This document shows, piece by piece, positions 1 to 23,079 of a stretch of DNA of 25,376 bases. Position 1 is the first letter of the stretch. Each line of letters starts with the position of its first letter. Source of the stretch: a virus; IMG/VR virus record IMGVR_UViG_3300036980_000720, positions 1 to 25,376 of that record, one strand, 5' to 3'. A program made the translations under genes and the position numbers. Under the pieces are notes generated by a model. It saw only the letters and a list, made by a program, of their open reading frames with translations, was not told the DNA's origin and ran no database searches.

Positions 1-801
1 GGTTTCCGCACCGGCCACCCAAATCGCCTCGAGGGAGTCGGTCAGGTGGTTCTCGGTGAGGGCCGCGCTCGACTTGTCGTAGACGTTGGTCGTGACGCGG
101 GCGAAGATGCCGTCCATCGCGCCGGCGCCGGCGGCGAGGGCGGAGGTCGGCTGAACCTTCTTGCCGTACAGGAGCGTGCGCTCCATGTTCACGGCGAGGG
201 CCTCGAGGTGCTTCGCGATCTCCCGCTCGGTGTCGTTGCCGGCCGCGTACTTCGCGGTGGCAGCGTTCGTGGCGGAAACCTTGATCTCCTCCTCGAAAAT
301 CTGCGTGTAGTTGAACACGCCGACCTTCGTGGTGGAGCGGGCCCCGAGAAGATCCTGGCCCTGGGCCAGCGCCGGGGCGATCAGGAGGACGACGGAGCTG
401 TCCGCGTGGACAGCGGCGACCGAGCCGCCCCAGGCGCGGGAGACGGTGATCGAGTCCGAGTCCACGATCGCGGTGACGCGCATGAGCTCGTTGTCGACCT
501 TGATGATGTCCTGCACCCGGAACTTGTACGCCTCGTTCGCGGCCGACAGGTCGAAGCTGACCGGGTCGGACGTGTTGTTGAGGCTGGTGCCGGAGGACTT
601 CACGGCGGAGGCGAGGCCACGGACCTCGTCCTCGAGCCACTCGTGCTTGACGGCCGTGCAGGAGTCACGCAGCGAGTCGCGGCCCACGAGCCGCAGGAGG
701 GGCGTGTCGGTCGGGCGCAGGATGTCCAGCGCCGAACTCATGTCGATCTTCTCGTTGACGGAGTCGCTCCAGGTGAAGCGACCGCCCGAGATGACGGCCA
801 T
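1..801 (-). CDS. Major capsid protein, SU10/DUF5309-like (3' end outside window)
   Basis: This is the N-terminal 267 codons of a probable major capsid protein; the reading frame runs off the left edge. The ATG at 801 is preceded by AAGGAGAG on the coding strand. What I recognise is the SU10/DUF5309 capsid pattern. It has an N-terminal arm with TPLLRLVGRDSL near residues 33-44 and a charged HEW motif at 53-55. A small inserted beta domain follows at about 95-140, ending in SRAWGGSVAAVH. Next comes a segment beginning EEIKVSATNAAT and a helix of the form REIAKHLEALAVNMERTLLYG (split here by eye, 193-213), typical of the HK97-fold spine region. It follows a putative scaffold gene by 43 bp, the usual scaffold-capsid order in podovirus-like heads. 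The start lies just below a hairpin that would mask its ribosome binding site. The family call is from memory of conserved patterns. Confidence 0.85.
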   Translation of the reverse strand, partial: MAVISGGRFTWSDSVNEKIDMSSALDILRPTDTPLLRLVGRDSLRDSCTAVKHEWLEDEVRGLASAVKSSGTSLNNTSDPVSFDLSAANEAYKFRVQDIIKVDNELMRVTAIVDSDSITVSRAWGGSVAAVHADSSVVLLIAPALAQGQDLLGARSTTKVGVFNYTQIFEEEIKVSATNAATAKYAAGNDTEREIAKHLEALAVNMERTLLYGKKVQPTSALAAGAGAMDGIFARVTTNVYDKSSAALTENHLTDSLEAIWVAGAET

Positions 802-844: not shown

Positions 845-1516
845 CTACTCCGCTGGATTGCCCCTACGCAGGAGGGTGCCGATCCAGCTTTCCAAGCCTC
901 GTGTTCCAGATCCGCGGAGCTCGTCGGGGACCTCTTGGGTTCTCACGACGGGTCCGCCTGTGCGGGTATCGGCATCCATCAGGCCGTAGGACGGCGCGGG
1001 CGCGGCGGGTTCCGCGGGCGCTGCCTCCGCTGGCGCAGCTTCGGCGGCCGGGGTGAACGTGCCGAGCACTTCGTACATCTTGTCCACGATCGCCTCGGGG
1101 TCATCCGTGCGAAGCATGAACTGGCGAAGCTCTCGGCCCGCCCGGGCCACCTGTCCGTGAACCGTCTCCTGCGCGGTCCAGAGCTGCGTCTCGGCACGCC
1201 GGCGGATCTCGATGGTCCGGGGATCGGTGATCCCCTCGAGCTCGGGGTCCGGGATCTCGGCCTTCTCGCGAAGGCCCTTGATCGCGGTCACGAGATCGTC
1301 CTCGGATGCGCCAGCCTCGAGCCCCAGCTCTCGGCGCGCAGCGGCCCAACGCTGCGACTTGCGGGTGTACTCAGCCTGGAGGGACCGAAGCTCCGCGTCC
1401 TGTGTCGAAGGCTTGGCCGGCGCCTGATCGACGACCGGGGGGACGGGCTGCTCCACCTGTGGCGGAGTCCCTGCCTCGGGCGTTTCGATTGCTGCCTCGG
1501 TTGCTTCCGGTGGCAC
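845..1516 (-). CDS. Putative capsid scaffolding protein
   Basis: A 223-residue protein with a GTG start at 1516, preceded by GGGAGGT at good spacing. It is acidic and low in complexity at both ends. There is a Pro/Glu/Ala-rich first 40 residues, a charged helical core from about 42 to 140 (QAEYTRKSQRWAAARREL onward) likely to form coiled coil, and an Ala/Pro-rich hinge near 145-160. It ends with a short basic tail, GTLLRRGNPAE. No enzymatic motif is visible, and I see no serine-protease triad to suggest a prohead protease fusion. Scaffold proteins usually share this mix of helical, acidic body and a short basic capsid-binding tail. They usually sit immediately upstream of the capsid gene, as here. 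The function is inferred from position and composition, not from a recognised family. Confidence 0.65.
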   Translation of the reverse strand: MPPEATEAAIETPEAGTPPQVEQPVPPVVDQAPAKPSTQDAELRSLQAEYTRKSQRWAAARRELGLEAGASEDDLVTAIKGLREKAEIPDPELEGITDPRTIEIRRRAETQLWTAQETVHGQVARAGRELRQFMLRTDDPEAIVDKMYEVLGTFTPAAEAAPAEAAPAEPAAPAPSYGLMDADTRTGGPVVRTQEVPDELRGSGTRGLESWIGTLLRRGNPAE

Positions 1517-1585: not shown

Positions 1586-1897
1586 TCAGGGCCGCGCCTT
1601 CTTGATCGCCTTGATGTTCTTCTCGGTGTAGGGGATCACCGGGGTCTTGTTCTTCATGGCGCCGCTGATCGGGGACGGGATCTTGCCGGTCATCTGGCCG
1701 ACCGCGCTGTTGATGAACTCCCCGATCTTGCCGGTGCTCCACGGGTCCTGGGCCGGGGTGAGCGGCTTCGACACGGGGCTGGCCTTCGGGGCGACCTTCT
1801 TGACCGGCGCTCCCGCCTTGCGAGCGAGGCCCCCCGATCCCTTGGGTGTAGCGATCTTGCTCTTGGGCTTCGCGAGTCGGGAGCCTTTTCCTGGCAT
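1586..1897 (-). CDS. Small Lys-rich protein of unknown function, 103 aa
   Basis: I place the start at the ATG at 1897 because AGGAGG lies 7 nt upstream, overlapping the end of the giant gene. The longer reading frame extending to 2098 has no such signal and lies inside the giant gene. The first 50 residues are basic, rich in Lys, Pro and Ala (MPGKGSRLAKPKSK). The second half has a short amphipathic stretch, IGEFINSAVGQMTGK (58-72), and ends with the basic KNIKAIKKARP. There is no signal peptide, membrane segment or known motif. Its place between the giant virion-type protein and the scaffold suggests a structural or packaged role, perhaps binding DNA or capsid. That is inference only. Confidence 0.75.
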   Translation of the reverse strand: MPGKGSRLAKPKSKIATPKGSGGLARKAGAPVKKVAPKASPVSKPLTPAQDPWSTGKIGEFINSAVGQMTGKIPSPISGAMKNKTPVIPYTEKNIKAIKKARP

Positions 1898-1907
1898 GGT
1901 GCGCCTC

Positions 1908-4900
1908 CTAGTTGCCCCGGGTGGGGTTCGTCTCCGGGATCGGCTGGCCGGCCTCGATGAGCGAGTTGCGGATCGCGTCCGCGTTGGCCTGGTCGAGCGC
2001 CGACTTGCTGGCCGGCTTGATCGGGATGGTGAGCGGCAGCGTCGTCTCCCCGACATCGCCCACGCCGCCCAGCGGGCCCTCCGCGTTGAACACGCCACCG
2101 GCCTTGTTCTCCTCGAAGAACAGGCGCGGCAGGAGCGAGAAGTAGGTGTAGCCGGGGCCGACCGAGAACACGTTGCGCGAGTAGTCGTCGCCGCTCGCCA
2201 TGTTCAGGGCGATGCGCGTCCACGGGGCGAGGCTCACGCCGATGTCGAACGGGGTGATCGGGAGGAGCATCTGGCCGATGAACAGGAGCGTCTTGTGCTG
2301 CTCGAACCACTTGCGGTAGGCGGGGTCGGTGTTGTACCGCTCGATGTGGCGGTCGTGGACGTTGGAGAGGACGACGGCGCCGCCGGCGCCCGTGTCCACC
2401 CCGAACGCGCTGTCGAACAGGACGCGGGCGAGCCATTTCGTCGCCTTGATCTGGTAGCTGATCGGCCAGTACAGGAGCGGGTGGTTCAGGAGGCGCTGGA
2501 AGTTGCTCCGGTCGGGCTGGCCGTAGAACACGGCGGCCAGGTCGTCGTACATCGAGTTGTTGATCTCGCGGAGGCGCTCGTAGAGGGCCACCACGCGGGG
2601 GTCGTTGCGCGACTCCCCGATCGCCCGCTCGATCTCCGGGATGCCCGGGTAGGCGTCCTTCTCGGCCAACTTGGCGGCCTTCTCGGCGCCGAGCTCGTCA
2701 CCGAACTTGCCCAGGAGCTTCCCGCGCCCGCCGGCTTTGAGCCGGGCCCACGCCCGGGGATCGGTGATGACATCGAAGGCTTGCCAGTCGCGAACGAGCC
2801 GGTCGAGCCATTGGTCGGGCGTCTCCCCGAACGTCTTGAGCGTCGAGTTGAGGATCGGATCCTGCTTGGCCCACGCGAGGAGGACGCGCTCGAGCTCCTG
2901 CGGCGACTCCTTCTTCATCGCGGCGAGGATGGCGTTGTCCCGGGCCCGGCCGTAGACGCCGATCTCCTCCATCTGCGAGGCCCACCATGCCCAGCCCCGG
3001 CGGGCTGCGGCGCGGTCGACCTCGCTCCACATCGGCGGCATGACGGAGGGCCCGGCGGTCGTGCCTTGCATGGTCATCGCTCCGCGGGTTCCGCCCTGCA
3101 TCTTCGCGAACCGACGGTAGGTGGTGAGCCCGTCGCGGCCGATGAGGAGGGCGTCCGTCTCGATGAACTCGAGGGCGTGCCAGCGGGCGTCGAGGATGAA
3201 CCGGCCGAAGTTGTAGAGCACGTTCAGGTCGCGCTTGAGCTCGCCGGCGCCCCGGCCGACGGAGCTCCGGTACCAAAGCCGGTCGAGGTCGGTCAGGAGG
3301 CCCGGCTTGCTCTGGCGGAGCCACTCGCGGAAGCGGTTGTCCGCGAGGAGCCAGACCCGCTCGATCCCGCCCGGCTGCTGCTCGACCATGTTCCACCACG
3401 GCGGGAGCTCGCCGGAGTGGATCGCCTTGAGCGCGTCCCGCGCTTGCTTGTTCCACTCGGCCGGGGACACCGTCGAGAGGCGCCGGTGGATCGGGACCTT
3501 GAACGGCCCCATGCCCCAGCCAATCTGCATCCACTCGTGGATCGACGTGATGATCGCCTTCACGTCGCGGTCGATCGCGGCGATGTCGGCGCCGGGTCCG
3601 ACGATCTCTGCGATCTCGGAGACGAACCGCTCCTTGGCGGCGCGGGCCAGCGCCTTCTCGTGGCGGGGGCCGAAGGCCAGGTCGACCATCTGGACGACGG
3701 AGCGGGAGAACCGGGCGTCGGAGATCCGCTTGGGCAGGGTCCGGATCGGGCCCTCGAGGAGATCGTCCCCGAGCCCGGGCACGGTGGCGTTCGCCTGGTC
3801 GATCAGATCCTTGAACTCGCCCATGAGGTCGCGGTACTGGATGCGCGGCGTGAGCGGGGCGCGGTCGAACTTGCTCCGGCGGGGCAGGATGCCGAGCTGG
3901 TAGCCCGTGAAGCCCTCGATCGGGTCACCGCCGAACGCCTCGATCTTGCCCGCCAGCCGGGCGGCGAGGTCGTCGAGCGCGGCCGGCAGGATGGCGGGGT
4001 CGTCGACCACCACCGGCGCCGACTCGCCCCGGGCCCGGCCCTTCGCCACGAGCTCCATCATCCGGTCGCGCCGCGCCTGGGCCGCCGGGGAGCTCTCGCC
4101 GCCGGCCTTGCGGAGCGTGTTCTCGCCCAGCTCCATGAGGGCGATCCGGAGCTGCTGCGCCTCGGCCGGGGAGAGGTCGCCGTACATCGCCTTGTCGATC
4201 GAGTCGACCGCGGCCATGATCTCGCCCAGCGTGGGCGGCCCGTTGAAGTCCTCCCCGAACGCGAGGCGGATGGCAACGTCGTTCGTGTCCGGGACCTGAG
4301 CGAAGCGAGTCCACAGCGCGGCGAGCTCCGGGTCGTTCCACGGGACGCTCGTCGTCTCCGTGAGCGCCCCGGGCGTGTCGGCCTCGTCGATGATCCGCTG
4401 GGCCTCGGTCATGCGGCCGATGATCTCGATGCGCTTCTGCTCGAGGCGCTCGATCCGCGCCGCTTCGTCCGGACGGTGGAACTCGAGGTTGCGCGGGCCC
4501 TTCGGGTCCGGCGGCGTCGGGACGGCGCCAGCGTGCTCCTTGAGGGCGGCGGTGAGCGGCGCCCGGGCGTCGGAGACGACGACGTGGGCGGGCGAGGAGT
4601 CCAGGGCGGCGGCGAGGGCCACGTCGTCGGCCACGGCCTCGGCGTGGGGGATCGACGTGACCTCCTCGAACAAGGGCGGCGGGACGGCCTCCTTGGGCTG
4701 CACGTCCACGACCACGGCGTCGGAGCGGGTGAGTCCCTCGAGGTCGGCCAGGTTGTCGACCGTGCCGTCGTCGAGCGTCCGGCCGGGAGCTCCGACCGAG
4801 CGGTTGATGACGTTCTGCGCGCCCTCCACGCGCCGAGCCGCGTCGGCGGCGGCGGCGGCGGCGTCGGCCAGCACCGGCGACTCCAGCACGGGCGGGTTGG

Positions 4901-7900
4901 TGATCCCCGTCTCGCCCATGCGGTCGCCGGAGAGCGGCACGTCGCCCTCGGCGTTGGTGAACGGGCGGATGACCTCGACCTCGCCCAGCCCCATCCCGCC
5001 CTTCTTGGCCTCGGCGTCCATGCGACGGCCGTTGATCTCTTTCAGGGCGTTGTTGGCGATCTGCCACTTCGGCAGGGCCGTCGGCGCCCCGAACATCCCC
5101 AGGGCGGTCGGGTCCTCGCTGTTCTTGACCGCGTTCGCGTACTCGGTGAAGAACTCGGTGATCTCGGTCTGCGAGCGGGCCGTGTGGAGGACGAGCGCGA
5201 GCTCGCGGGCGAAGGCGTCGTCGGCGCTCTCGAACATCCGCGGGCTCGCCAGCACGTCCCGGATCTCGGACGCGGTGAGCGCCTGTCCGCGGAGGTTGAT
5301 GAGCTGGTCGATGGCCGGCGCCAGCGAGTCACCGATGGCGAGGTTGGGGAAGCGGTTGCCCGTCTCGATGAGGGCGTGGGCCTCGAGGAGAGGCTTGAGC
5401 GCCCCCAGGAGCCCGTTCCGGACGCGCCCGACATCGGTGTCGGCCGTCTCGAAGAACTCGGTCACGATCCGGTTCGTCGCCGGGTCGCGCATGAGCTTGC
5501 TCATCAGGGCCGCTTGCACGAGGTCGATGCCCTGCTTGTTGAGCCCGCCCTTGGGGGTGAGGTACTGCGCCTGTTCGCGCTGGGTGAGCTTGGACAGGAT
5601 GCGCTTGGCGAAGCGGATGCCCTCCTCCGTGTCGAGCGCGGAGGCCAGATCCTTCGAGCGCCCGAAGTCGATCGCGCCCACGTCGTTCGGGGTGATCTCC
5701 CGCGCCACCCGGGCTGCCGTCTCGGAGATGGACATTCCGCCGGTGGCGACGTTGAGAGCCGCGGCGAGCTGCGCGGAGGCGATGTCGGCCGGGACCTCGC
5801 GCACGAGCACGGGCCGCTTCATCCCCGCCACGACGGCCGGGTCGACCCCGAACTCCTCGGCCCGGGCGACGATCGTCTCCTTCATCATCTCGGCCATCGG
5901 ACCGCCAGCCAGGCGCATCGCCATCGTGCGCCCGTTTCCCGCGATCACGTTCAGATCCGGGTCCGTGACGAGGACGCCCTCGGCGCCCGACTCGGAGCGG
6001 AGCATGAGGTCAGTCGACGCCCTGGGCTCGACGCCCATCTGACGAGCCATCTCGACGACCTGTTCGTCGCTCGCCAGCCGGCCGGCGCGGTCACGCGGCT
6101 GGAGCTCCGTGCGGTAGCCGGGCTGGTCGGACGAGACGAGCTCGTCCAGCTCGACCACCCGGAAGGTCGCGGGGATGGTCTTGGTTTCGTCGTACGGGTC
6201 GGGGAAGCCCGTCTCCTTGCCGCGGCCAGCGAGGAGCGCGTTCTCCGCGGCGTCGGCTGCCTCCTCCGCCTCGCTGGACTTCTTGAGCGCGGCCAGCACT
6301 TCGCCCCAGCGCCCGGGCGTCTCGTTGTTGAGCCGCTTCGCCGCGGCGGTCTTGCTCGACCATTGCCGGTACGCCTCGCCCGGCCGGTTCTCGCGCACCT
6401 TGCCGCCGGGCAGGAACTCGATGCTCGAGCCGTCAGGGAACTCGACGCTCGTCGCGCCGGCGACGGTCGTGACCTTCGGCCCGGGGACCGCGGGCGCGGG
6501 CTCATCCGGGTACTTCGCCAGGGACTCCGCAAGATCCTTCTTGGCCGCCCGGATGGTGCGCTCCATGCTCTTGATCTGAGCGAGGTCGCTGGGCGACTGG
6601 CCGTGGACGCTGTTCTTGATCCTCTCGATCTCCTGCTCGTTCGAGGAGATCACTCCATCGAGGCGATCGTGGGCCAACTGGCGCATCGTGGCGTTGCTGG
6701 CTTTGATCGGCGGCGGGACCTCGGGCGCGGGCGTTTTCCGCGGCAGGAGCTCGGGGTTGGTGATCGCGAGCGAGCGAGCGTCGCTCACGGCCTTGGTCAC
6801 GGGCTCCTCGTACGGAGGCTCCTTCTCGAGCCACTTGCGGGCGTCGGCCAGCCGCTTCTGGTTGGCGCGGTTCCAGTAGTACCCGCTCGTGTTTTTGTGC
6901 GACTCTCGCCGGTAGCCTTCCTCGAGGTCGATCCCCTCCTTGGTCAACGCCGTGAACTTCGTGAGCGGGACGCCCTCCTTCATTGCTCCGGACAGGGGCT
7001 CCGACCCGGTCAGCTTGTCCGTGAGGTCGCGCAGCGGCTCGTCGGGAATGGGGAGTCCGTTCTCCCAGCGAACCTTGACGATGTGCCCGGAGCGGGAACC
7101 CCATTGAAGGACCCATGTCGGCTCCCGACCGGACGCGACGAGCGCCGCCTGGGCTTGGGCGATGACCGCTTGGTTGGCCTCCTCGCTCGGGTCGACCCAT
7201 CGCCCACCGCGCATCTCGTTCGGCCTGGACCGCCCGAAGGTGTACTCGAACGCGGCGGTAATCGCCCGGGTCGAGAGAGCACCCGCATCCTGCTTCGGCA
7301 CTTCGACGAGCTCGCCGCCCTCGACCGGGCGCACGGTGGTCCCCTCCGGCGTCTCGGCCACGACCTCGGCCATCCGGCCGTCGGGGAGTTCGACGGGCTT
7401 GGGAGCCTCCGCGGCGTGGGCTGCCTCGATCGCGTCCACGTCCGCGAACCCGCGCACGTTCTCGAGCGCCTCGCGGTAGCTGTCGGCCTCGACGTGGCCG
7501 GTCGGCGTCCCGTCCGGGTCGATGTACCCGCTCATCCACTTCCCGGGGCGACGCACGTCCGGGCCCACGAGGATGCTGCCCTGACCATCGCTCCGTGGGA
7601 CTTCGATCGGTCGCTCACCGGCCGCGGCCAGCGCGTCGAGCCGGTCGTTCTTCGCCTTCGCGTCCGCGATGAGTGCCTTGAGCCCGTCGGGCTTCATCGC
7701 CCCGCCCGACTCGGCCGTGCCGCCCCGGGCGATGCCCTCCTCGACGTTGAGGCGCTGGCCCTCCGCGATGTTCCCGGCGTCGTAGGCCGCCTGAATGGCC
7801 GCGCCAGCGGCGGGAACCGGCTCAGGAGCCGCGGGAGCCCCCGGGATGGCGTCCGGTGCCACTTCGCCCGTTCCGGGCGCTGGAGGGGCCTCTGCGGGCG

Positions 7901-10900
7901 GCGCTCCCGCCCCCGGGGGAGGCTCCGGGGGCGGTGCTGCCGCTGCCCGACCCGCGGGCGTCTTTGGTCGGCCGGTCTGGATGGCCCACGACTCGATGCC
8001 CTTCGACGTGGAGAGCTGGTAGGCGCGGGCGAGCCGGGCCTCGGGGTGCGCCAGCCGGTACGCGGCCAGCGCGGCGTCGGCCGCGGCCTTGCCCTCGCCC
8101 TTCGGGGCCGCGATCGAAGTGTTGACCGTGTGCCAGCTGATCCGCTCCTGCCAGACTTGCCACTTCCCCGTCTCGGGGTCCTTGTCGATGAACGACGCGA
8201 TGCCCGGACTGGCCTCGTCGAGCTCGAGCTGCGCGGCCTTCGCCTTGTTCTCCGTGAGCCCCTTGCGCGACGGGGTCGGGTTCCAGTCGACGTTCTCCGG
8301 GCCCAGCCCGGCGCGGAGCCGGGCCTCCTCGATGTCGAGCTTCCGGAGCTGGGCGGCGTGGTTCGAGAGGAGGTCCGTGGCGGTGCGCTTCGCCTGGGCG
8401 ATCCGCGGGGCTGGGCTGGCGACCTTGAACGAGAACCACGGGTCGCCCACGACGGCCTTGATCCAGCGCGGGACACGGTGCGTCGTGCGGGACATCTCCT
8501 CCGAGAGCGTCTTGGGCGTCGCCGGCCCGAACGTGTAGACCTCCTCGCCCAGCACCCGGGCCCGGCGCATGAAGTCGTCCACGTCGTTCGCCACGCCGGA
8601 GCCCGGCTTCATCGAGAGCCGGTTCGCGTAGCCCTCGACCTGGGCCGCGGCGTCCGCGAGGGTCTGGTTCATGGCGAGCGCCTTGGCCTCGAGGTCGGCC
8701 ACGTCGGCGGCGGTGAAGTCCCGCGACTCCCCGTTGACCCGGAGGAGGTCGTCGTGGAACAGCTCCGCGCCCGGCTTGCCCATCCGCTCGAGCAGGGCGC
8801 GCTCGTCGACGGTGAGCGGCGGGTCCATCGCGAGCCCACGGTCGCGCAGGATGGCGAGCTTCTCCCACACCGGGGCGAGTGGGTCGGACAGGAGCGCGAG
8901 GTCCGCGTCGGTCACGTCGGTCACGTCACGGCGGAGGCGGTCGAGGAGCATCGCCGCTTCCTCGAGCACGCCCGCGTTGGCGCCCGGCGGCAGGAGCGTC
9001 GGCCGCTCGCGGGTGACGACGGTCTGGAGCGCGACGACCGGGTCATCGAGGAGGGTGTCGAGATCCTTCTCGAAGTATTCGAGGGCCTCGACCATCGTGT
9101 TCCGCCAGAACTCGGCCGCGGCCGGCTGGCGAGCGAGGAAGTCGTCGCGGGGTGGCCGCTGGAGGGACTGTGTGGCGCCCGTGATCGCCTCGATGATCGG
9201 GGCAGCGCCCGGGCGCCCCTTGATCCGGTTGGCGAACTCCTCGAGGCCGACGATGAGCCCGCCGCGGATCTGCGCGTCGGCCAGCCGCTCCTCGAACACG
9301 CTCATCGCGTGGAGGAGGGCGCCGGTGCGGGAGCTCAGGGCCACGGTGAACGGCACATTGCGCTCGGCAGCGTCCCACTTGACGATCGACTCGGGGATGA
9401 CCGCTCCCTCGGGCGCCGTGTCATCTAGGAACGGCATCAGGTCCTTGACCATGTCCTCGGGCATCCCGGCGGCCTTCGCCATCTCGGGGACCATCTGCGC
9501 CTCGATCTGGTCGGCGGTGATCGGCGGGCGCTCGCCCTGCGGGAAGCGCGCCTCCGTGGCCCGCACCGCGTTCTCGGTCTTGAGCTGGGCGCCCATGATC
9601 TCCTCGAGCCGCTTCCGGGTCATGCGCGGCGTCCAGCCCTTGCGCGGGCCCGGGCGGAGCTCGGGGTGCAGGACGAGGCTCGGCATCGCGAGGCGGATCA
9701 TGTTGAGCAACTGCGCGGGCACCGTGTCCTCGGGCTTGAGCCCGCGCTTGTTCATCGTGTCGATCGCCGCCTTCACCCGCGGCGCGTCGATCCGCTCGGC
9801 CAGGGCGAGGGTCCAGTCCTCGCGGGCGATCTGGCGCCCTTCGGCCTTGGCCTTGGCGATCGTCTCGACGGCGAACTGGCTCTGCCACGTCCAGCCTCGG
9901 AACTGGAGGAAGCTGGTCATCGCGTCGAAGCTGCCGTACATCGGCTCCATGCCGATCTCGCTGGCGTCGCCGCCGCCGTGGTTCCAGTACGTCTCCCGGA
10001 ACCGCTTGACCAGCCAGCCGGTGTCGCCCTTGACGACGGCGTTCTCGAGGAGCTTGGCCGCGTCTGCGATGTGGGCCGTGACCCACTCGGCGGAGAACGC
10101 GGAGATCCCGACCGCCGGGTTGAGGGCCCGGGCGCTGTCGCCGGCCCGGTCCCGGACCTCGGAGAGCGCCTGGTAGAGCAGGGCGTTCCGGAGCTCGTTC
10201 ACGTCCGAGATCGGCATGGAGCCATCCGGAAGCGGCCGGTCACCGAACACGGCACGGACGGCCTCGGGCTCCCAGCCGATCTTGTTCGTGACCCGGTTGA
10301 TGATGTCGTCGAGGCTGACCTTGCCGATCCGGGCCAGCGCCGTGCCCGTCCGCAGCGGGATCGGGATGTCCGCGTCGACGCCGGCCACCCGCAGCGCCTC
10401 GACCGGGCGCTCGCCCAGGATGATCCGCTTGCTGATCGCATCGGGCAGATGCGAGAGGGCACCCGTCGTGGGGGCATCCCCAACGCCACGCAGCGACACG
10501 CCGACCGCGCTCCTGCCCTCGCCCGCGTAGATGTCGCCCTTGAGGATCTCGGGGAGGACCCAGCCCTTCTCGCCGGTGATCGGGTTGGTGCGGCGGAGCG
10601 CGTGCGTCCCGAAGCCGTCGATGAGGTTGAGGCCCGGGTTCGTGGAGAGGGGCATCTCCCACAGGAGCTTGTCCAGATGGTCGACCCACGCCTGATTGCC
10701 CAGGAGGAGGGCGGTTTCCTTGGCCGCGAGCTCGGCGCCGCGCACGCCCCAGCCCGACAGGGTGATCCCGCTGTTGATCCGCCAGAGCGTGTCGATCCCC
10801 TTCACGCCGACCGCGACGCCGCGGCCGACGCCGCCGAGCCCCAGCACCCGCGGCGCCATCGCGGCGCCCTGGAGGCCCTTCACCGCGATGCCCCCGGCGA

Positions 10901-12011
10901 CGAGCATCCCGACCTGGATGCCGAGCTCGAGGACGATGTTGATGCCGGGGTCGGTCGAGAGCGGCTGGCCGCTGGTGAGGAACTGGAGCTCGTCGTCCCC
11001 GATGTTCGGGTTCGCCATGATCGTCGACACGATCCGGGGATCGAGGTCATACAGCTTGGCGGCCATGTTCGTCCACGTCTCGCCCTTGGCGACCGCGGCG
11101 GCGGCGATGCGCTCCGCCGTGGTGCGGTCCCCGCCGATGAGGTTCGCGGTGATGAACGACGTGACGTTGCCGGTGGTGAGCTGGATCGCGCCCGTCTGCG
11201 CGATCTGGCGGAGCTCGGCGCCGCGGTTCCCCGCGTTCGTGTCGCGCCACCACTTCATCGCACCGTCGAACACGCCCCACACCGCGTCTCCGACCGCGTT
11301 CGCGCCGTCGATGATCGTGTCGATGGGGGTCTTGTCCTCGTCGGCCGGGCCCGCGACCTGTTCCCCGAACATGGCGCCCGGCTGCTGCTCGTAGCGGCCG
11401 GTCCCGGAGGCCACGGAGGAGAGGAGCGCGAGGAGCCCCTCCCGGCCCCAGCTCGCCGCGTTCGCCACGGTGATCGGTGCCGTCGCGATGGGGATGCCGA
11501 ACGGACCCTCGATCGAGCCTCCCCGCTGCTCGCCGCTGGTGAGCCCGGCGAAGGCGCCGAGCGGCGAGTTGGACACGGCCTCCACGCCCTGCCCGAACAA
11601 GGACAGGTTCACCCGCTCCGGGAAGCCGACGGCCGCCTGGTCGGCCACGGCCGCCGGGCCCGCGAAGGCGGCGGAGGGCCGGCCGAGCCGCGGGATGGCG
11701 GTCGTGGTGCCCGGCATCGGGCCGTTGTACCGGACCGCGGTGGGGCCCCCCGACGGCTGAACCTCACCCGGGTAGGCACGGGGAACCTCCCGCCAGACGA
11801 CCTCGGGGGCGGGGTCGTAGCGGAGGCCCCCCGTGCGGCGCCCCGTCGAGGCGAGCGTCGCCCGTGGGGCGCGGATGATCTGCTCGTAGACGGGGCGCCC
11901 CATCGAGAGGGCGCGGTCGAGTGCGGCCCCGGCGCCCCGCGGCGCGACCGGCGTGGGCCCGGCGTAGGACTTCTCCGGCGAGTAGCCCGACTCGTCCCAA
12001 AAGTCGGTCAC
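1908..12011 (-). CDS. Giant 3367-aa polyvalent-type protein with DdrB-like ParB domain
   Basis: One uninterrupted gene of 3367 codons, about 360 kDa. The GTG start overlaps the upstream stop (GTGA). The first ~1350 residues are mostly helical with a hydrophobic Gly/Ala stretch near 355-405. A Pro/Ala-rich linker follows at about 1350-1404, then several small mixed domains. The clearest module, about 1945-2110, resembles the ParB-superfamily domain of DdrB-type polyvalent proteins: ELQPRDR at 1969-1975 and GNGRT at 2025-2029 after a hydrophobic strand, then PVLVREVP. Helices follow to about 2300. The last ~650 residues are rich in Trp and aromatics. They contain HPLLYWPISYQIK near 3177 and a hydrophobic segment near 3243-3266 that could contact membrane. 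Polyvalent proteins are known as large phage proteins thought to enter the host with DNA. Its site between portal and scaffold fits a virion or ejection role. I see no RNA-polymerase, helicase, methylase or HExxH peptidase motif. Confidence 0.9.
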   Translation of the reverse strand: MTDFWDESGYSPEKSYAGPTPVAPRGAGAALDRALSMGRPVYEQIIRAPRATLASTGRRTGGLRYDPAPEVVWREVPRAYPGEVQPSGGPTAVRYNGPMPGTTTAIPRLGRPSAAFAGPAAVADQAAVGFPERVNLSLFGQGVEAVSNSPLGAFAGLTSGEQRGGSIEGPFGIPIATAPITVANAASWGREGLLALLSSVASGTGRYEQQPGAMFGEQVAGPADEDKTPIDTIIDGANAVGDAVWGVFDGAMKWWRDTNAGNRGAELRQIAQTGAIQLTTGNVTSFITANLIGGDRTTAERIAAAAVAKGETWTNMAAKLYDLDPRIVSTIMANPNIGDDELQFLTSGQPLSTDPGINIVLELGIQVGMLVAGGIAVKGLQGAAMAPRVLGLGGVGRGVAVGVKGIDTLWRINSGITLSGWGVRGAELAAKETALLLGNQAWVDHLDKLLWEMPLSTNPGLNLIDGFGTHALRRTNPITGEKGWVLPEILKGDIYAGEGRSAVGVSLRGVGDAPTTGALSHLPDAISKRIILGERPVEALRVAGVDADIPIPLRTGTALARIGKVSLDDIINRVTNKIGWEPEAVRAVFGDRPLPDGSMPISDVNELRNALLYQALSEVRDRAGDSARALNPAVGISAFSAEWVTAHIADAAKLLENAVVKGDTGWLVKRFRETYWNHGGGDASEIGMEPMYGSFDAMTSFLQFRGWTWQSQFAVETIAKAKAEGRQIAREDWTLALAERIDAPRVKAAIDTMNKRGLKPEDTVPAQLLNMIRLAMPSLVLHPELRPGPRKGWTPRMTRKRLEEIMGAQLKTENAVRATEARFPQGERPPITADQIEAQMVPEMAKAAGMPEDMVKDLMPFLDDTAPEGAVIPESIVKWDAAERNVPFTVALSSRTGALLHAMSVFEERLADAQIRGGLIVGLEEFANRIKGRPGAAPIIEAITGATQSLQRPPRDDFLARQPAAAEFWRNTMVEALEYFEKDLDTLLDDPVVALQTVVTRERPTLLPPGANAGVLEEAAMLLDRLRRDVTDVTDADLALLSDPLAPVWEKLAILRDRGLAMDPPLTVDERALLERMGKPGAELFHDDLLRVNGESRDFTAADVADLEAKALAMNQTLADAAAQVEGYANRLSMKPGSGVANDVDDFMRRARVLGEEVYTFGPATPKTLSEEMSRTTHRVPRWIKAVVGDPWFSFKVASPAPRIAQAKRTATDLLSNHAAQLRKLDIEEARLRAGLGPENVDWNPTPSRKGLTENKAKAAQLELDEASPGIASFIDKDPETGKWQVWQERISWHTVNTSIAAPKGEGKAAADAALAAYRLAHPEARLARAYQLSTSKGIESWAIQTGRPKTPAGRAAAAPPPEPPPGAGAPPAEAPPAPGTGEVAPDAIPGAPAAPEPVPAAGAAIQAAYDAGNIAEGQRLNVEEGIARGGTAESGGAMKPDGLKALIADAKAKNDRLDALAAAGERPIEVPRSDGQGSILVGPDVRRPGKWMSGYIDPDGTPTGHVEADSYREALENVRGFADVDAIEAAHAAEAPKPVELPDGRMAEVVAETPEGTTVRPVEGGELVEVPKQDAGALSTRAITAAFEYTFGRSRPNEMRGGRWVDPSEEANQAVIAQAQAALVASGREPTWVLQWGSRSGHIVKVRWENGLPIPDEPLRDLTDKLTGSEPLSGAMKEGVPLTKFTALTKEGIDLEEGYRRESHKNTSGYYWNRANQKRLADARKWLEKEPPYEEPVTKAVSDARSLAITNPELLPRKTPAPEVPPPIKASNATMRQLAHDRLDGVISSNEQEIERIKNSVHGQSPSDLAQIKSMERTIRAAKKDLAESLAKYPDEPAPAVPGPKVTTVAGATSVEFPDGSSIEFLPGGKVRENRPGEAYRQWSSKTAAAKRLNNETPGRWGEVLAALKKSSEAEEAADAAENALLAGRGKETGFPDPYDETKTIPATFRVVELDELVSSDQPGYRTELQPRDRAGRLASDEQVVEMARQMGVEPRASTDLMLRSESGAEGVLVTDPDLNVIAGNGRTMAMRLAGGPMAEMMKETIVARAEEFGVDPAVVAGMKRPVLVREVPADIASAQLAAALNVATGGMSISETAARVAREITPNDVGAIDFGRSKDLASALDTEEGIRFAKRILSKLTQREQAQYLTPKGGLNKQGIDLVQAALMSKLMRDPATNRIVTEFFETADTDVGRVRNGLLGALKPLLEAHALIETGNRFPNLAIGDSLAPAIDQLINLRGQALTASEIRDVLASPRMFESADDAFARELALVLHTARSQTEITEFFTEYANAVKNSEDPTALGMFGAPTALPKWQIANNALKEINGRRMDAEAKKGGMGLGEVEVIRPFTNAEGDVPLSGDRMGETGITNPPVLESPVLADAAAAAADAARRVEGAQNVINRSVGAPGRTLDDGTVDNLADLEGLTRSDAVVVDVQPKEAVPPPLFEEVTSIPHAEAVADDVALAAALDSSPAHVVVSDARAPLTAALKEHAGAVPTPPDPKGPRNLEFHRPDEAARIERLEQKRIEIIGRMTEAQRIIDEADTPGALTETTSVPWNDPELAALWTRFAQVPDTNDVAIRLAFGEDFNGPPTLGEIMAAVDSIDKAMYGDLSPAEAQQLRIALMELGENTLRKAGGESSPAAQARRDRMMELVAKGRARGESAPVVVDDPAILPAALDDLAARLAGKIEAFGGDPIEGFTGYQLGILPRRSKFDRAPLTPRIQYRDLMGEFKDLIDQANATVPGLGDDLLEGPIRTLPKRISDARFSRSVVQMVDLAFGPRHEKALARAAKERFVSEIAEIVGPGADIAAIDRDVKAIITSIHEWMQIGWGMGPFKVPIHRRLSTVSPAEWNKQARDALKAIHSGELPPWWNMVEQQPGGIERVWLLADNRFREWLRQSKPGLLTDLDRLWYRSSVGRGAGELKRDLNVLYNFGRFILDARWHALEFIETDALLIGRDGLTTYRRFAKMQGGTRGAMTMQGTTAGPSVMPPMWSEVDRAAARRGWAWWASQMEEIGVYGRARDNAILAAMKKESPQELERVLLAWAKQDPILNSTLKTFGETPDQWLDRLVRDWQAFDVITDPRAWARLKAGGRGKLLGKFGDELGAEKAAKLAEKDAYPGIPEIERAIGESRNDPRVVALYERLREINNSMYDDLAAVFYGQPDRSNFQRLLNHPLLYWPISYQIKATKWLARVLFDSAFGVDTGAGGAVVLSNVHDRHIERYNTDPAYRKWFEQHKTLLFIGQMLLPITPFDIGVSLAPWTRIALNMASGDDYSRNVFSVGPGYTYFSLLPRLFFEENKAGGVFNAEGPLGGVGDVGETTLPLTIPIKPASKSALDQANADAIRNSLIEAGQPIPETNPTRGN

Positions 12012-15000
12012 TTCGGCACCGGCTTGTAGACCGGCCGCAGGACTGGAGTCTCACGGCTCGGCGTGGGCGGGCGCGGGCTGGGGGTTACTGTCGCGGGCAG
12101 ATCGTTGATGCGCCCGAGCGGGCCGGTGTAGAGCGGCACCGGCGTTCTGGACCCGGGCGGAGGCGCGGCCGGCGCCCGCGGCTTGATGTCGACTGGCGTG
12201 ACCGGCCGGATCGTGGGTGTGACCGGCCGCACCGTCGGGCTGATCGTGAAGCCGGTCGCCGGGTTGACGGTGGGCGAGCCCTTCGGGACGAACGTAGCCG
12301 GGCCCGGGACGCTGTTGACGGCGGGCACTCCGACCGGAAGCGGACCCGTTCGCAGCTTGGCGGCCCCGATCATGCCCGGGGTGATCGCGCCCTGGAGAGT
12401 CGAGGAGCCCAGGATGCCGCGGAGGCGTCCGGCAGCCGACAGGTCCGGGGGCGGGACGTTCATGTCGTCCTCGTACCAGCGGTCGCGGGCGATGCCCCGG
12501 TTCGAGGAGCTCGAGGCCGGGACCAGATCGGACTTCCACCGCTTCGAGACGGGGTCGTAGTAGCTGTCCCGGTCGACGTTCCGGGCCCCGCCGGTGCCCC
12601 GGGCCCGGGCGAGCCGGGCGGCGCGCTGGGCAACGGTGGCGGCGACTTCGTTGTAGGGCCGCTGGATCATCTCGCCGTTCGTGCCGATCGTGTCTCGGGA
12701 CTCGCGCTCCGGACGGCCCGTGAGCGGGCGCCAGGTGTCGATCGCTCCGTCGTACCGGGAGATCGTCCAGTCGAAGTCCAGTCCCTTCGCCCCGGTGCCG
12801 ACCTCCGCGGCGCCCCGGGCGTCGTCGACGCGCCAGAACCGGGTGTACTTCCACATCTCGGCCGGCAGCGGGCCGACCTTGCCGTCGGCGCCGTACATCC
12901 CGAGCGAGCCGTCCTCCTGAAAGCCGAAGGTGGCCGACGGCTGCTGGCCGAACCGCGTGGGGAGGTCGGGGTCGAGCATGACCGTGGGCGGGGTGCCGCC
13001 CTCGGAGAGTCGAAGCCAGATCGCTCCGGCCGAGCCCGGGGGCTCCACGCTGACCCACGTCGAGTAGCCGCGGGTCCAGCCGCCGGCGCCGTCCGGGATC
13101 CAGCCAAAGACCTTCTGCGAGTAGAGCGGGATGCCCTGCCCCGTGGCGAAGCGGAGCCCGCCGGTGCGGGCCGTGTTCGCCGTCTGCGGGCGCGATGGCT
13201 GGCCCGGGCCCGCGGAGGTTCTCCGGGGCTCGCGGTCGTTGGGCCCGCCGATGATGACCTTGCCGCCCGAGAACGTGGTGACGACGGCCGTGACGGTCGC
13301 GGTGAGCGACTGGCTGGGCCTGAGCCAGAGCTGCGTGTTCTGCTTCGGGGTGCCGGTCTGCTCTCGCTCGAGCGCGGCGTCGAGGCTGGGGTCGTCGTTG
13401 TAGGTGATGACCGGGGAGAGCTCGTTCCGGTAGGCGAAGGCCATGACCTCCTGCCCGTTCTCGATCCGGGTGACGGGGGCGAAGTCGGTGGGCCGGTCGA
13501 ACGGGGTGACGAGCACGGTCTGACCGCCCGCGTTCTGCGTCCAGTAGGCGCCCGTGCCCTTCGCCACGTCGTCGTGGAGCTGCACGTTGCGGACGGCGGG
13601 GGTGCCGTCGACGCCCTGGTACTGGTCGTAGGTCAGGACGCCGGTTTCGATCGCCCACATGATCCGGTCGCCGTCCATGTTGAGCGGGTCGTCGGGGTTG
13701 AGCGGGTCGGGCTGGAAGGGGGCGATCTTGTCGATGTCGGAGGAGAGCCGGTCGAACTGCTCCGGGGTGAGCGGGGAGGTCATGTTCTCGCGGGACGTGG
13801 AGACGATCGACGGGTCGCCCTCGATGCCGCCGGCGTCGCGGATGAGGAGCTGCTGCTGGCGGGTGGCCGCGATGTAGGTCGCGATGTTCCCGGTCAGGAG
13901 GGCGTCCTGCTTGTCGCGCTCGAGGGCGGCGAAGCGGTCGCCGTACTCGTCCATGACGAGCCCGCGGTTGAGCCGGGCGAGGGCCTTCTCCTTGGAGAAC
14001 CGCTCGCCGGCGGCCTGGAGCGCGGCCTTGGCCGTCGGCGCGTTCATCCGCCACGCATCCCACGCCGCGATGCCCGCGGTGAGGAACTGGCGGTGGAGGT
14101 CGGGGCTGTACGCGACCTCGAACTCGTTGCCGTTCTTGTCGAGGAACAGCCAGGTCGTCGCGCCGAGCTGCTCCGCCGCGTCGAGGCGGGCCACGTTCTT
14201 GTTGAACCACCCGCGCTCGGTCGAGTTGGAGGCGTTGATCGAGAGGGCGGAGAGGATCGAGCCCTTCGGGATCGGGCGCCCGTTCACGTCCTTGGTCGCA
14301 CCGGCGACGACCTTCCACGGCTCACCCGGGAAGATGACCTTGGCGATGCCCTTGATCGTGCCCTTCGGCTCGCCGTCGCCGCTACCGCCGCCGCCGCCGG
14401 ACCCGCCCAGCGCCTTGAGGTCGCGGATCGTCGCCGCGATCTGCCGGGCCCGCTGGCTGCCCGGGACCATCGAGCGCATCGTGCTCTCGTAGAACCGGAT
14501 GAGCTGCCCGACGCTGGCCTTGCCCTTGTTCACGTCGTCGCGCAGCTTGTCCTCCGCCAGCGAGAACCGGGTCATCACGAGACGCTGCTCCGCGTCGGCG
14601 CGCTCGCGGGAGCCCGCGGGGGCCTCCTTCACGGCCCGCTCGAGATCCTTGAGGTACTGCGCGTCGGTGATCTTGCCCCGCTGCCAGCGGTCGTAGATGT
14701 CGGCGTGGGCCGTCGCGAGCGTGTCGGACCGGATCGCCTTGGTCAGATCCTCGCGCTGGCGGGCGAGGGCTTCGTACTTCGGGGAGCCCGGGACGAGGAG
14801 CCCGAGCTGCGCGTCGATCGCGGCGAGGAACTTCTTGCCCTGCGGGTCGCGCCCCTGCTGGTAGTCCTGGGCGAGCACAGCCATGTACTCGTCGTTCTTC
14901 CGGCCGACGAGGTCGTCCATCGTCCGCTTCCAGTCGTCGGCGTCCGGGGCCCCGACCGACGCGGTCATGGCGCCCTTGACGTACTCGATGAGCTGGTCGG

Positions 15001-15505
15001 TGGTGAGGAAGCCGGCGTTGAGCTGCTCCACCATGTCGCCGTAGCGGGTCTGGCGGAGGTCGGCCTGTGAGGAGAGGATGCGGTACTGGAGTTCGCGCTG
15101 CTGCTCGTTGTCAGGCGCCATCGAGTTGAGGCGCATCTGGTCGTGAGCGAGGAGCGCCTCCGTCGCGGCGATCCGGGCGGAGGAGCTCGCGGCCACGTTG
15201 ACCTGGTTGACGAGGGCGTTGCGGGCGATCGTGTACTGCGCGTCCTCGAGCTTGTTCTTGGCCGTGATCCAGCCGATCGAGCCGGTCGTCTCGAGGGACA
15301 GGGCCTTCTCGAGCGACGCGAGGTAGGCGGCGTCGGGCACGGTTCCGTTCTGCCAGCCGACCGCGACCGCGTACGCCTCCGTCGCGTTGAGGGACGCGAC
15401 ATCGGTCATCTGGTAGCGGCCGAGCCCGCCGCGGGACGAGCCGAACGGATCGAGGCTTCCGAGCCCGGCGAACGATCCTCCGCGGCTGATGCGGAAGGTG
15501 GGCAC
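12008..15505 (-). CDS. Putative internal virion protein with ~55-residue helical repeats, 1165 aa
   Basis: GTG start at 15505 with AGGAGG 5-6 nt upstream. The stop overlaps the start of the giant gene by 4 bp, so the two are probably translationally coupled. Residues 51-367 hold about six degenerate helical repeats, beginning near 51, 107, 162, 215, 274 and 327. The best pair begins WQNGTVPDAAYLASLEKAL and WQRGKITDAQYLKDLERAV. A Gly/Ser linker follows at 367-378. The middle (about 380-1000) is a mixed alpha/beta region with many Trp and Asp residues. The last ~150 residues are Pro/Thr/Arg-rich, with the short repeat RPVTPTIRPVTP. There is no signal peptide, membrane segment or catalytic signature I recognise. 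Being coupled to the giant gene and close to the portal gene suggests a protein of the portal vertex, inner core or ejection machinery. This is inference. Confidence 0.8.
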   Translation of the reverse strand: MPTFRISRGGSFAGLGSLDPFGSSRGGLGRYQMTDVASLNATEAYAVAVGWQNGTVPDAAYLASLEKALSLETTGSIGWITAKNKLEDAQYTIARNALVNQVNVAASSSARIAATEALLAHDQMRLNSMAPDNEQQRELQYRILSSQADLRQTRYGDMVEQLNAGFLTTDQLIEYVKGAMTASVGAPDADDWKRTMDDLVGRKNDEYMAVLAQDYQQGRDPQGKKFLAAIDAQLGLLVPGSPKYEALARQREDLTKAIRSDTLATAHADIYDRWQRGKITDAQYLKDLERAVKEAPAGSRERADAEQRLVMTRFSLAEDKLRDDVNKGKASVGQLIRFYESTMRSMVPGSQRARQIAATIRDLKALGGSGGGGGSGDGEPKGTIKGIAKVIFPGEPWKVVAGATKDVNGRPIPKGSILSALSINASNSTERGWFNKNVARLDAAEQLGATTWLFLDKNGNEFEVAYSPDLHRQFLTAGIAAWDAWRMNAPTAKAALQAAGERFSKEKALARLNRGLVMDEYGDRFAALERDKQDALLTGNIATYIAATRQQQLLIRDAGGIEGDPSIVSTSRENMTSPLTPEQFDRLSSDIDKIAPFQPDPLNPDDPLNMDGDRIMWAIETGVLTYDQYQGVDGTPAVRNVQLHDDVAKGTGAYWTQNAGGQTVLVTPFDRPTDFAPVTRIENGQEVMAFAYRNELSPVITYNDDPSLDAALEREQTGTPKQNTQLWLRPSQSLTATVTAVVTTFSGGKVIIGGPNDREPRRTSAGPGQPSRPQTANTARTGGLRFATGQGIPLYSQKVFGWIPDGAGGWTRGYSTWVSVEPPGSAGAIWLRLSEGGTPPTVMLDPDLPTRFGQQPSATFGFQEDGSLGMYGADGKVGPLPAEMWKYTRFWRVDDARGAAEVGTGAKGLDFDWTISRYDGAIDTWRPLTGRPERESRDTIGTNGEMIQRPYNEVAATVAQRAARLARARGTGGARNVDRDSYYDPVSKRWKSDLVPASSSSNRGIARDRWYEDDMNVPPPDLSAAGRLRGILGSSTLQGAITPGMIGAAKLRTGPLPVGVPAVNSVPGPATFVPKGSPTVNPATGFTISPTVRPVTPTIRPVTPVDIKPRAPAAPPPGSRTPVPLYTGPLGRINDLPATVTPSPRPPTPSRETPVLRPVYKPVPK
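14366..15355 (-). repeat. Six degenerate ~55-residue repeats within the 1165-aa protein
   Basis: Protein-level repeat with units starting near residues 51, 107, 162, 215, 274 and 327, a spacing of 53-59. The shared pattern is WxxGxI, then DxxYLxxLExAh, a turn often containing VPGS, then a second helix rich in Arg/Glu/Leu. Copies 1 and 5 match best; copies 2-4 and 6 are recognised mainly from phase, the VPGS/MAPD turn and the LNAG or VNKG opening. Confidence 0.6.
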
Positions 15506-15514
15506 GGGGGCCTC

Positions 15515-16261
15515 CTACTTCTTGACGGCCTTGTACTTCGGCGCGGCGGGCTTGGCCGCGTTGACCTTCTTGGCGGCGGTGGCCTTGGCGGCGACGGGAG
15601 CCTTCTTCGGGGCAGACTTGATGACGCCGCCACGGCCCTCGTAGAGAGCGGGCTTCCCGACCGTCCCTGCCTGGCGGCCGGACGATACGGTCCTGGTAAC
15701 GCCCGTGCTTGACGTGACCTTCTGGAAGGACGGGGTGCTTCGCTCCAGCTTGCCCTTCTGGATCGCCGCGAACCGGGCCCGGGCGCTGGCCGTGGTGACG
15801 CTGGTCCGCGGGTTCGACTCGTAGAGCGTGCCCGACGGTTGGGGCGAGCCGCCCTCCGAGACGCGACGGTACCCCCCGGAGGGGGTGCGGACGTTGTACG
15901 ACCCGGGCTGCGTACGCGGGGGCGCTGTCGGCCGCGGGGCCCGGACGGCGGCGGGAGGCGGTGGCGGCTGGGGCGACCGGCGGGACGGAGGCGGCGGGGC
16001 GCTACCTCCCGTGCGCCCGGGCGGTGTCACGTCGACGCGATCGGGTGGCGGGAGCTCGCCGGCGCTGCCCGACATATCCGTGAACGGCACGGCGTACGGG
16101 TCGTCGCTGTACCCGATGTTGTACCGGGACAGGTCGCCGGAGGCGCGCATCTTTGGGGCCGGAAGCGCGCCCGACTCCCTGCGCGAACGCTGGGCGACGA
16201 CGGCCTGGACTTCCGACTGGCGGGCCGCGACCGCGGCTTCCTTTTCTTCCTTCGTCGCCAT
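15515..16261 (-). CDS. Pro-rich protein with histone-like Lys/Ala tail, 248 aa
   Basis: ATG start at 16261, preceded by AGGAG, which overlaps the portal stop region. Residues 1-30 form a charged helix (MATKEEKEAAVAARQSEV). Residues 70-125 are largely disordered, with runs of Pro, Arg and Ser. The region after about 125 has short YNVRTPSGGYRRV-like segments. The last 35 residues are a Lys/Ala/Pro tail (KKAPVAAKATAAKKVNAAK) resembling histone H1 or bacterial histone-like tails. It has no globular domain I can name. The ten-base gap to the portal gene and nine-base gap to the 1165-aa gene place it in the same operon. A basic, disordered protein here could bind packaged DNA or line the portal channel; this is inference from composition. 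Confidence 0.75.
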   Translation of the reverse strand: MATKEEKEAAVAARQSEVQAVVAQRSRRESGALPAPKMRASGDLSRYNIGYSDDPYAVPFTDMSGSAGELPPPDRVDVTPPGRTGGSAPPPPSRRSPQPPPPPAAVRAPRPTAPPRTQPGSYNVRTPSGGYRRVSEGGSPQPSGTLYESNPRTSVTTASARARFAAIQKGKLERSTPSFQKVTSSTGVTRTVSSGRQAGTVGKPALYEGRGGVIKSAPKKAPVAAKATAAKKVNAAKPAAPKYKAVKK

Positions 16262-22741: not shown

Positions 22742-23079
22742 TCGACCAGCTCCCCGAGCCCGGCGTCCTCGAGCTTCCGGGCGACGCGCTTCTTGTCGGG
22801 GTCGTACTTCATGCCCTCCCCGAAGGGCCCATCGCGGCCGACCAGCATCTTGCTCCAGACCTCCTTGCCTGTCGTCTCTCCGTAGCGGTCGACGAGCGCC
22901 TCGTGGAGCGACACGGCCACGGGCGGGAGCTCGTCGGGGACCTTGATCCGTTTCTGGCGCCGGAAGCCTGACCCCGCCCAGGGCGTCTCCTGCACCACCA
23001 CGCCGACCGAGCGCAGCCCGTGGGACAGGATGATGTCGAAGCGGTTGGCGGCCTCCGGGTAGAGGAACACGTCGACCAT
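22738..23079 (-). CDS. Unknown protein, 113 aa
   Basis: I start it at the ATG at 23079, which shares one base with the upstream stop (TGATG). The longer open frame to 23442 runs inside the repeat gene and is its shadow. The N-terminus is alpha/beta (MVDVFLYPEAANRFDIILSH), followed by a strand GLRSVGVVVQETPW and a basic loop RRQKRIKVP. A helical half with SLHEALVDRYGETTGKEVW follows, then an acidic end. There is no signal peptide, membrane segment or named motif. Its tight coupling to the fibre-like gene might suggest an accessory, such as a chaperone or attachment factor, but nothing in the sequence shows this. Confidence 0.75.
   Translation of the reverse strand: MVDVFLYPEAANRFDIILSHGLRSVGVVVQETPWAGSGFRRQKRIKVPDELPPVAVSLHEALVDRYGETTGKEVWSKMLVGRDGPFGEGMKYDPDKKRVARKLEDAGLGELVE

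Follow-up and report, generated by a model that had tools for sequence, protein, structure and literature searches.

A giant phage protein encoded between portal and scaffold genes, with conserved end modules and an apparently exchangeable middle section

What is a protein of 3,367 residues doing between the portal and scaffold genes of a phage? The question is raised by a viral DNA of 25,376 bases, the entire IMG/VR record IMGVR_UViG_3300036980_000720 (hereafter the window), which is probably a fragment. An earlier note, made from the letters alone, had described an uninterrupted 10.1-kb gene in the head operon, between portal and scaffold, without giving its strand. We confirmed this gene; it is on the minus strand and comprises 3,367 codons. 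In the order of transcription, a candidate terminase gene is followed by those for a 125-aa protein, the portal protein, a 248-aa protein, a 1,165-aa protein, the giant, a 103-aa protein, a scaffold-like protein and the capsid protein:

18622..20298, minus strand, probable large terminase, from its position (83% identical in a relative)
16271..18238, minus strand, portal protein (PF05133, E 2.7e-8)
15515..16261, minus strand, 248-aa Pro/Lys-rich protein without a family match
12008..15505, minus strand, 1,165-aa partner protein directly upstream of the giant (blastp to relatives)
1908..12011, minus strand, giant protein P0001, 3,367 aa (GTG start, no internal stop, homologues)
1586..1897, minus strand, 103-aa basic protein, from an inner ATG of the ORF 1586-2098, starting 10 bases past the stop codon of the giant
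845..1516, minus strand, scaffold-like protein, from its position only
1..801, minus strand, SU10-type major capsid protein, truncated at the contig end (PF17236, E 2e-35; phrog_1328)

The giant is a real, conserved gene. Its length alone is beyond chance: when the window was re-drawn 100 times with a second-order Markov model, the longest stop-free frame had a mean of 699 aa and a maximum of 1,109. The GC content of its three codon positions (0.69/0.49/0.95) is the typical coding pattern for high-GC DNA. Its start overlaps the stop codon of the partner gene via GTGA, and the VTD sequence at the start is also present in the two close relatives described below. The plus strand has a 2,593-aa ORF (1647-9428), which was considered and rejected as a mirror of the giant gene that nothing supports. 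A ribosome-site-like GGAGG precedes the gene of the 103-aa protein. The terminase candidate at 18622-20298 had no substantial match in Pfam, PHROG or NCBIfam, and tblastn against 50,697 phage records gave no hit, suggesting a very divergent packaging enzyme.

A whole-protein pattern scan of viral contigs returned nothing, and relatives were obtained by a portal-based scan followed by a scan with an alignment of the C-terminal region. All of them are metagenomic contigs, mostly viral records, and none is rated complete. The portal scan identified two close relatives, G003 (46,675 bases), whose giant has 3,424 aa, and G005 (50,494 bases), whose giant totals ~3,170 aa and lies at opposite ends of the record as pieces of 1,276 and ~1,890 aa, which we kept apart. 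The pieces are found at L017:1-3830 and L019:4808-10492. This split suggests that the genome is circularly permuted or circular; an end repeat was looked for in G005 and not found. The C-terminal scan added L022 (2,310 aa), L023 (1,891 aa) and L024 (2,768 aa), which come from records G008, G009 and G010, as well as L031 (1,856 aa, protein P0016) and L032, which holds the C-terminal end only. The giants of the family thus range from 1,856 to 3,424 aa.

Where the contigs cover the region, the gene order is portal, partner (~850-1,165 aa), giant, scaffold-sized gene and capsid gene. In each relative covering the position, the giant is preceded by a partner homologue or a gene of the same size. 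The partner of the window matched those of G003 (2.7e-99) and G005 (1.2e-76) by blastp, and weakly those of L022 to L024.

Comparison of the giants showed that two modules, one at each end of the protein, form the frame of the family:

8142..11624, minus strand, N-terminal conserved module, residues ~130-1290 (blastp to P0008 and P0009; hhalign to P0016)
10881..10937, minus strand, hydrophobic segment 1, residues 359-377 (Kyte-Doolittle 2.03)
1992..4244, minus strand, C-terminal conserved module, residues ~2590-3340 (blastp, alignments)
2442..2468, minus strand, core WPISYQ.KA of the C-terminal module, residues 3182-3190
2235..2291, minus strand, hydrophobic segment 2, residues 3241-3259, in a similar place in P0008, G005 and P0016

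Blastp showed two blocks in common with the close relatives, at residues ~130-1155 and ~2476-3331. The N-terminal region matched P0008 over residues 133-868 (6e-40) and 1066-1286 (8e-4), and P0009 over residues 132-379 (4e-26) and 409-1155 (1e-29). The module aligned by hhalign with the 1,856-aa P0016 (probability 97.1, E 7e-11) and weakly with the distant trio L022 to L024 (probability 48), so that N-terminal homology is doubtful for L022 to L024 and clear only for P0016 and the close trio of the window, G003 and G005. The C-terminal module extends to all eight family sequences, with blastp matches to G005 (1.5e-91), P0008 (2e-82), P0010, P0011 and P0014, and its core is invariant in the eight aligned sequences. 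Hydrophobicity is modest in both segments and lower in the distant members; the counterpart of the first is similar in P0009 (Kyte-Doolittle 1.73) and weaker in P0008 (1.18). The frame modules had no match among the phage records, Pfam and PHROG families and PDB sequences searched, and tblastn of the two end regions of the giant and of P0016 against the 50,697 phage records returned nothing. The earlier note had counted about 2,900 residues without a match as room for unknown effectors; most of them instead belong to these two family-conserved modules and a linker.

That linker opens an internal section (about residues 1300-2590) that varies across the family and contains the following features in the window:

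7812..8111, minus strand, Ala/Pro-rich linker, residues ~1301-1400 (29 Ala and 21 Pro per 100; aligns poorly)
5796..6188, minus strand, DdrB-like ParB domain, residues 1942-2072 (PF18763, E 3.3e-17, cutoff passed)
5001..5795, minus strand, helical region after the ParB domain, residues 2073-2337, also present in phage DdrB-like proteins

Between its end blocks, P0016 has ~470 residues versus ~1,700 in the window protein, and the ParB domain lies within the extra stretch. The ParB section is restricted to the close trio: PF18763 matched G003 (3e-21) and G005, and a profile search found the domain absent from G008, G009 and G010. Motif and Pfam searches of the 1,856-aa P0016 revealed no GNGR motif, ParB domain, HExxH or ADP-ribosyltransferase-like segment. 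P0010 and P0014 (L022:4658-11590 and L024:2918-11224) carry the zincin-like motifs HEWTH and HEFAH, in a segment resembling a 2,062-aa protein that adjoins the structural lysozyme of Pseudomonas phage HU1. In P0011 (1,891 aa; L023:9170-9640), an insert within the C-terminal module contains an ADP-ribosyltransferase-like motif (YHFTKPENLDSILVEGL); this reading is by motif only, as ART-PolyVal and PDB sequence searches with the insert were silent. Comparison of the window with the six relatives in which enough of the gene is present thus reveals what appears, from the sequences, to be an exchangeable middle.

The ParB domain was the sole domain found by the Pfam search of the giant, the flanking segments giving no meaningful match. 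A match to phrog_5143 spans residues 1946-2326, beyond the Pfam domain, and tblastn with the ParB region of ~370 residues retrieved P1 DdrB, Piluca, Acinetobacter phages and Y7. The motifs QPR.R, GNGR and P.LVR are common to the window, G003, G005, Piluca and Y7. An AlphaFold model of residues 1930-2337 (408 aa; pLDDT 74, pTM 0.59) had no significant Foldseek match in the PDB. Among viral models (BFVD), Foldseek matched the whole 408-aa model to DdrB-like phage proteins, with E values down to 4e-16. VIA-align placed the predicted structure among CTP-binding ParB folds, with ParB, Noc, KorB and PadC at the top of its list, most over ~90 residues, at Z scores of 5.9-7.7, a range below the level that stands alone. 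Together, the Pfam match, the motifs, the VIA-align ranking and the viral-model matches support the ParB fold well. Its activity would be one of those proposed for DdrB-like ParB domains, which have been argued to sense or degrade nucleotides, with DNase activity as the alternative (Iyer et al. 2017, PMC5512222).

The giant shares two traits with polyvalent proteins as described in the same work (PMC5512222), the DdrB-ParB domain and virion-gene neighbors. The earlier description of the protein as polyvalent-type therefore stands as regards its hallmark domain (PF18763), but not as regards multivalency, because a single nameable domain was identified. The HExxH motif of self-processing zincin metallopeptidases, common but not obligatory in polyvalent proteins, is absent from P0001. 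LPD38 (PF18857) was not found in a search whose control was silent too, and searches of PADLOC, NCBIfam and PDB sequences yielded nothing or chance-level matches.

The type of virion that these phages form bears on the function of the giant. In L023, the gene next after an SU10 adaptor (PF24175) encodes a Dit-like protein, and a J-like fiber protein comes one gene further on. Only L023 shows the adaptor clearly; G003 has a faint trace of it. In G003 and L024, the same Dit-like gene comes soon past the capsid gene and is followed by fiber or tailspike genes. The tape-measure profile PF10145 was silent in five relatives, with positive controls, and in the portions of G003, G005, G008 and G010 that were read, the other ORFs of more than 700 aa are only portal-region, tailspike and fiber genes. 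From the adaptor-then-Dit order, the silence of the tape-measure profile and the lack of another large ORF, we infer that the phages of this family are probably short-tailed. The SU10-type capsid does not decide between short and long tails, because long-tailed phages such as Lietuvens are among its distant relatives. One of the tailspike-like ORFs, of 1,628 aa, runs from L015:16445-19999 into L016 (G003 30445-35331) and contains two pectate-lyase-like tailspike regions; its true start may be further in.

With short tails, the giant and its partner would stand in for internal ejection proteins. We thus propose, with a probability of about 0.6, that the giant is a portal-proximal internal protein of the virion that is ejected with the DNA. 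The frame modules and the partner would assemble at the portal inside the capsid, and on infection the giant chain would be threaded out, ahead of or together with the DNA. As has been proposed for T7 gp16, the two hydrophobic stretches, or the frame, might assist its passage across the envelope. The ParB domain would then arrive in the cytoplasm. There it might bind or hydrolyze a nucleotide in a CTP-type pocket or act on DNA, and it may protect or organize the incoming genome. The conserved ends would serve to package and deliver the giant, the middle being exchangeable cargo. A specific anti-defense role is much less probable than ejection itself. Some observations count against ejection: no peptidoglycan-hydrolase domain was found in the giant, its hydrophobic segments are only modest and fade in the distant members, and ejection genes usually follow the tail genes rather than lying between portal and scaffold. 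The AlphaFold model of the C-terminal module was not usable (pLDDT 47, pTM 0.26), so that no fold backs an ejection role. More tentatively, the giants may represent an undescribed carrier family of uncultivated environmental phages, the end modules of which would be a packaging and translocation chassis for unrelated effectors (ParB, zincin protease, ADP-ribosyltransferase-like). If so, such a chassis would amount to a natural device for protein delivery.

The main rival to ejection is a role as an assembly factor, because P1 DdrB is present in purified virions as a head protein and is reported to aid the addition of DarB to the capsid (PMC9024508). The giant would then work in head morphogenesis, with the ParB domain helping to load or order components and no effector acting in the host cell, which fits the placement of the gene between portal and scaffold. 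However, the size of the protein, its varying cargo and the zincin- and ADP-ribosyltransferase-like segments of its relatives fit delivered activities better, and several relatives keep the C-terminal frame without the ParB section. We consider this role unlikely.

Two further explanations were weighed against ejection. One is that the phage has a long tail and that the giant is its tape-measure protein, encoded at an unusual place. The giant is very long and mostly helical in prediction, its length varies in the family (1,856-3,424 aa) and it has hydrophobic stretches; moreover, the downstream Dit-like protein is typical of siphophages, and no alternative tape-measure candidate was found. Nevertheless, tape-measure profiles had no match in the relatives, and neither Pfam nor PHROGs gave one for the giant. 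The direct succession of adaptor and Dit in L023 leaves no space for tube and chaperone genes, and the giant precedes the capsid gene in all relatives, making a tape measure improbable. It is very doubtful that the giant is a MuF-type minor head protein carrying a toxin or an effector, of the MuF polymorphic toxin class. The muf genes lie directly downstream of the portal gene (PMC5576092), and some phages fuse polyvalent domains to MuF (PMC5512222), but PF04233 had no match in the window and five relatives at E values up to 1, with positive controls, and two more genes separate the portal gene from the giant in the window.

Known systems offer analogies for such a virion protein, and also differences. 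P1 DdrB, from the Dar system of Punavirus, has a homologous DdrB-like ParB domain and helical region (~28% identity over ~368 residues by tblastn). In contrast to the giant, it is a protein of ~109 kDa with a C-terminal metallopeptidase (PMC5512222), where the giant lacks HExxH, and it has no detectable counterpart of the frame, as the end regions matched no phage record by tblastn. The Alcaligenes podophage Piluca encodes an epsilon15 gp16-like protein with a DdrB-ParB domain (E 4.5e-21) in a large protein adjoining the pilot protein. Unlike the giant, it has 956 aa, a weak transglycosylase match and no frame modules, and its gene comes after the tail genes. For JC1 gp69, a 4,515-aa DarB-like protein of a Bcep22-like podophage, 51 unique peptides were detected in purified virions (PMC9144972), showing that virions of short-tailed phages can contain giant polyvalent proteins; its gene position differs from that of our giant. 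The 4,675-aa protein of Y7 has the ParB domain in common with the giant but differs by its gene position and by helicase, methylase and ART domains, none of which was found in the giant.

The virion RNA polymerases of N4 and DEV (about 3,400-3,500 aa; for DEV, PMC10925440) are similar to the giant in size, presumed delivery and occurrence in short-tailed phages. In line with the earlier note, which had missed the motifs of the N4 enzyme, no T7-like RNA polymerase module was detected in the giant, with no match in Pfam or PDB sequences at E values up to 1. T7 gp16 and its relatives are the largest members of a co-conserved cassette and have hydrophobic regions toward both ends (PMC8954989), features that the giant resembles with its conserved partner and its modest hydrophobic stretches. 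Unlike them, the giant showed no sequence similarity to this class and no lytic domain, and its gene lies between portal and scaffold.

ParB cargo and giant delivered proteins are already known. What appears to be new, as judged from the sequences compared, is the pair of frame modules without a match, the unusual placement between portal and scaffold and the apparently exchangeable middle section. Giant phage proteins are mostly annotated by their sole recognizable domain, whereas comparison within the family splits a conserved frame from variable cargo and yields defined borders that experiments can use. Should the frame be the part that is loaded into capsids and then driven into cells, other cargo in its slot would offer a directed route to counter-defense or take-over activities. 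The uncultivated phages concerned may include some that infect poorly studied soil bacteria. The L031 and L032 contigs were binned with Vicinamibacterales and Chloroflexi MAGs, which is a weak hint at their hosts, as stray viral contigs can enter bins.

Upstream of the packaging genes, the minus strand of the window also encodes a 545-aa protein made of repeats of ~25 residues (23079-24716; RAFADAVTVSTAWTR...). Its C-terminal end resembles a carboxypeptidase-regulatory-like domain (PF13620), with an E value of 7e-4 that misses the cutoff.
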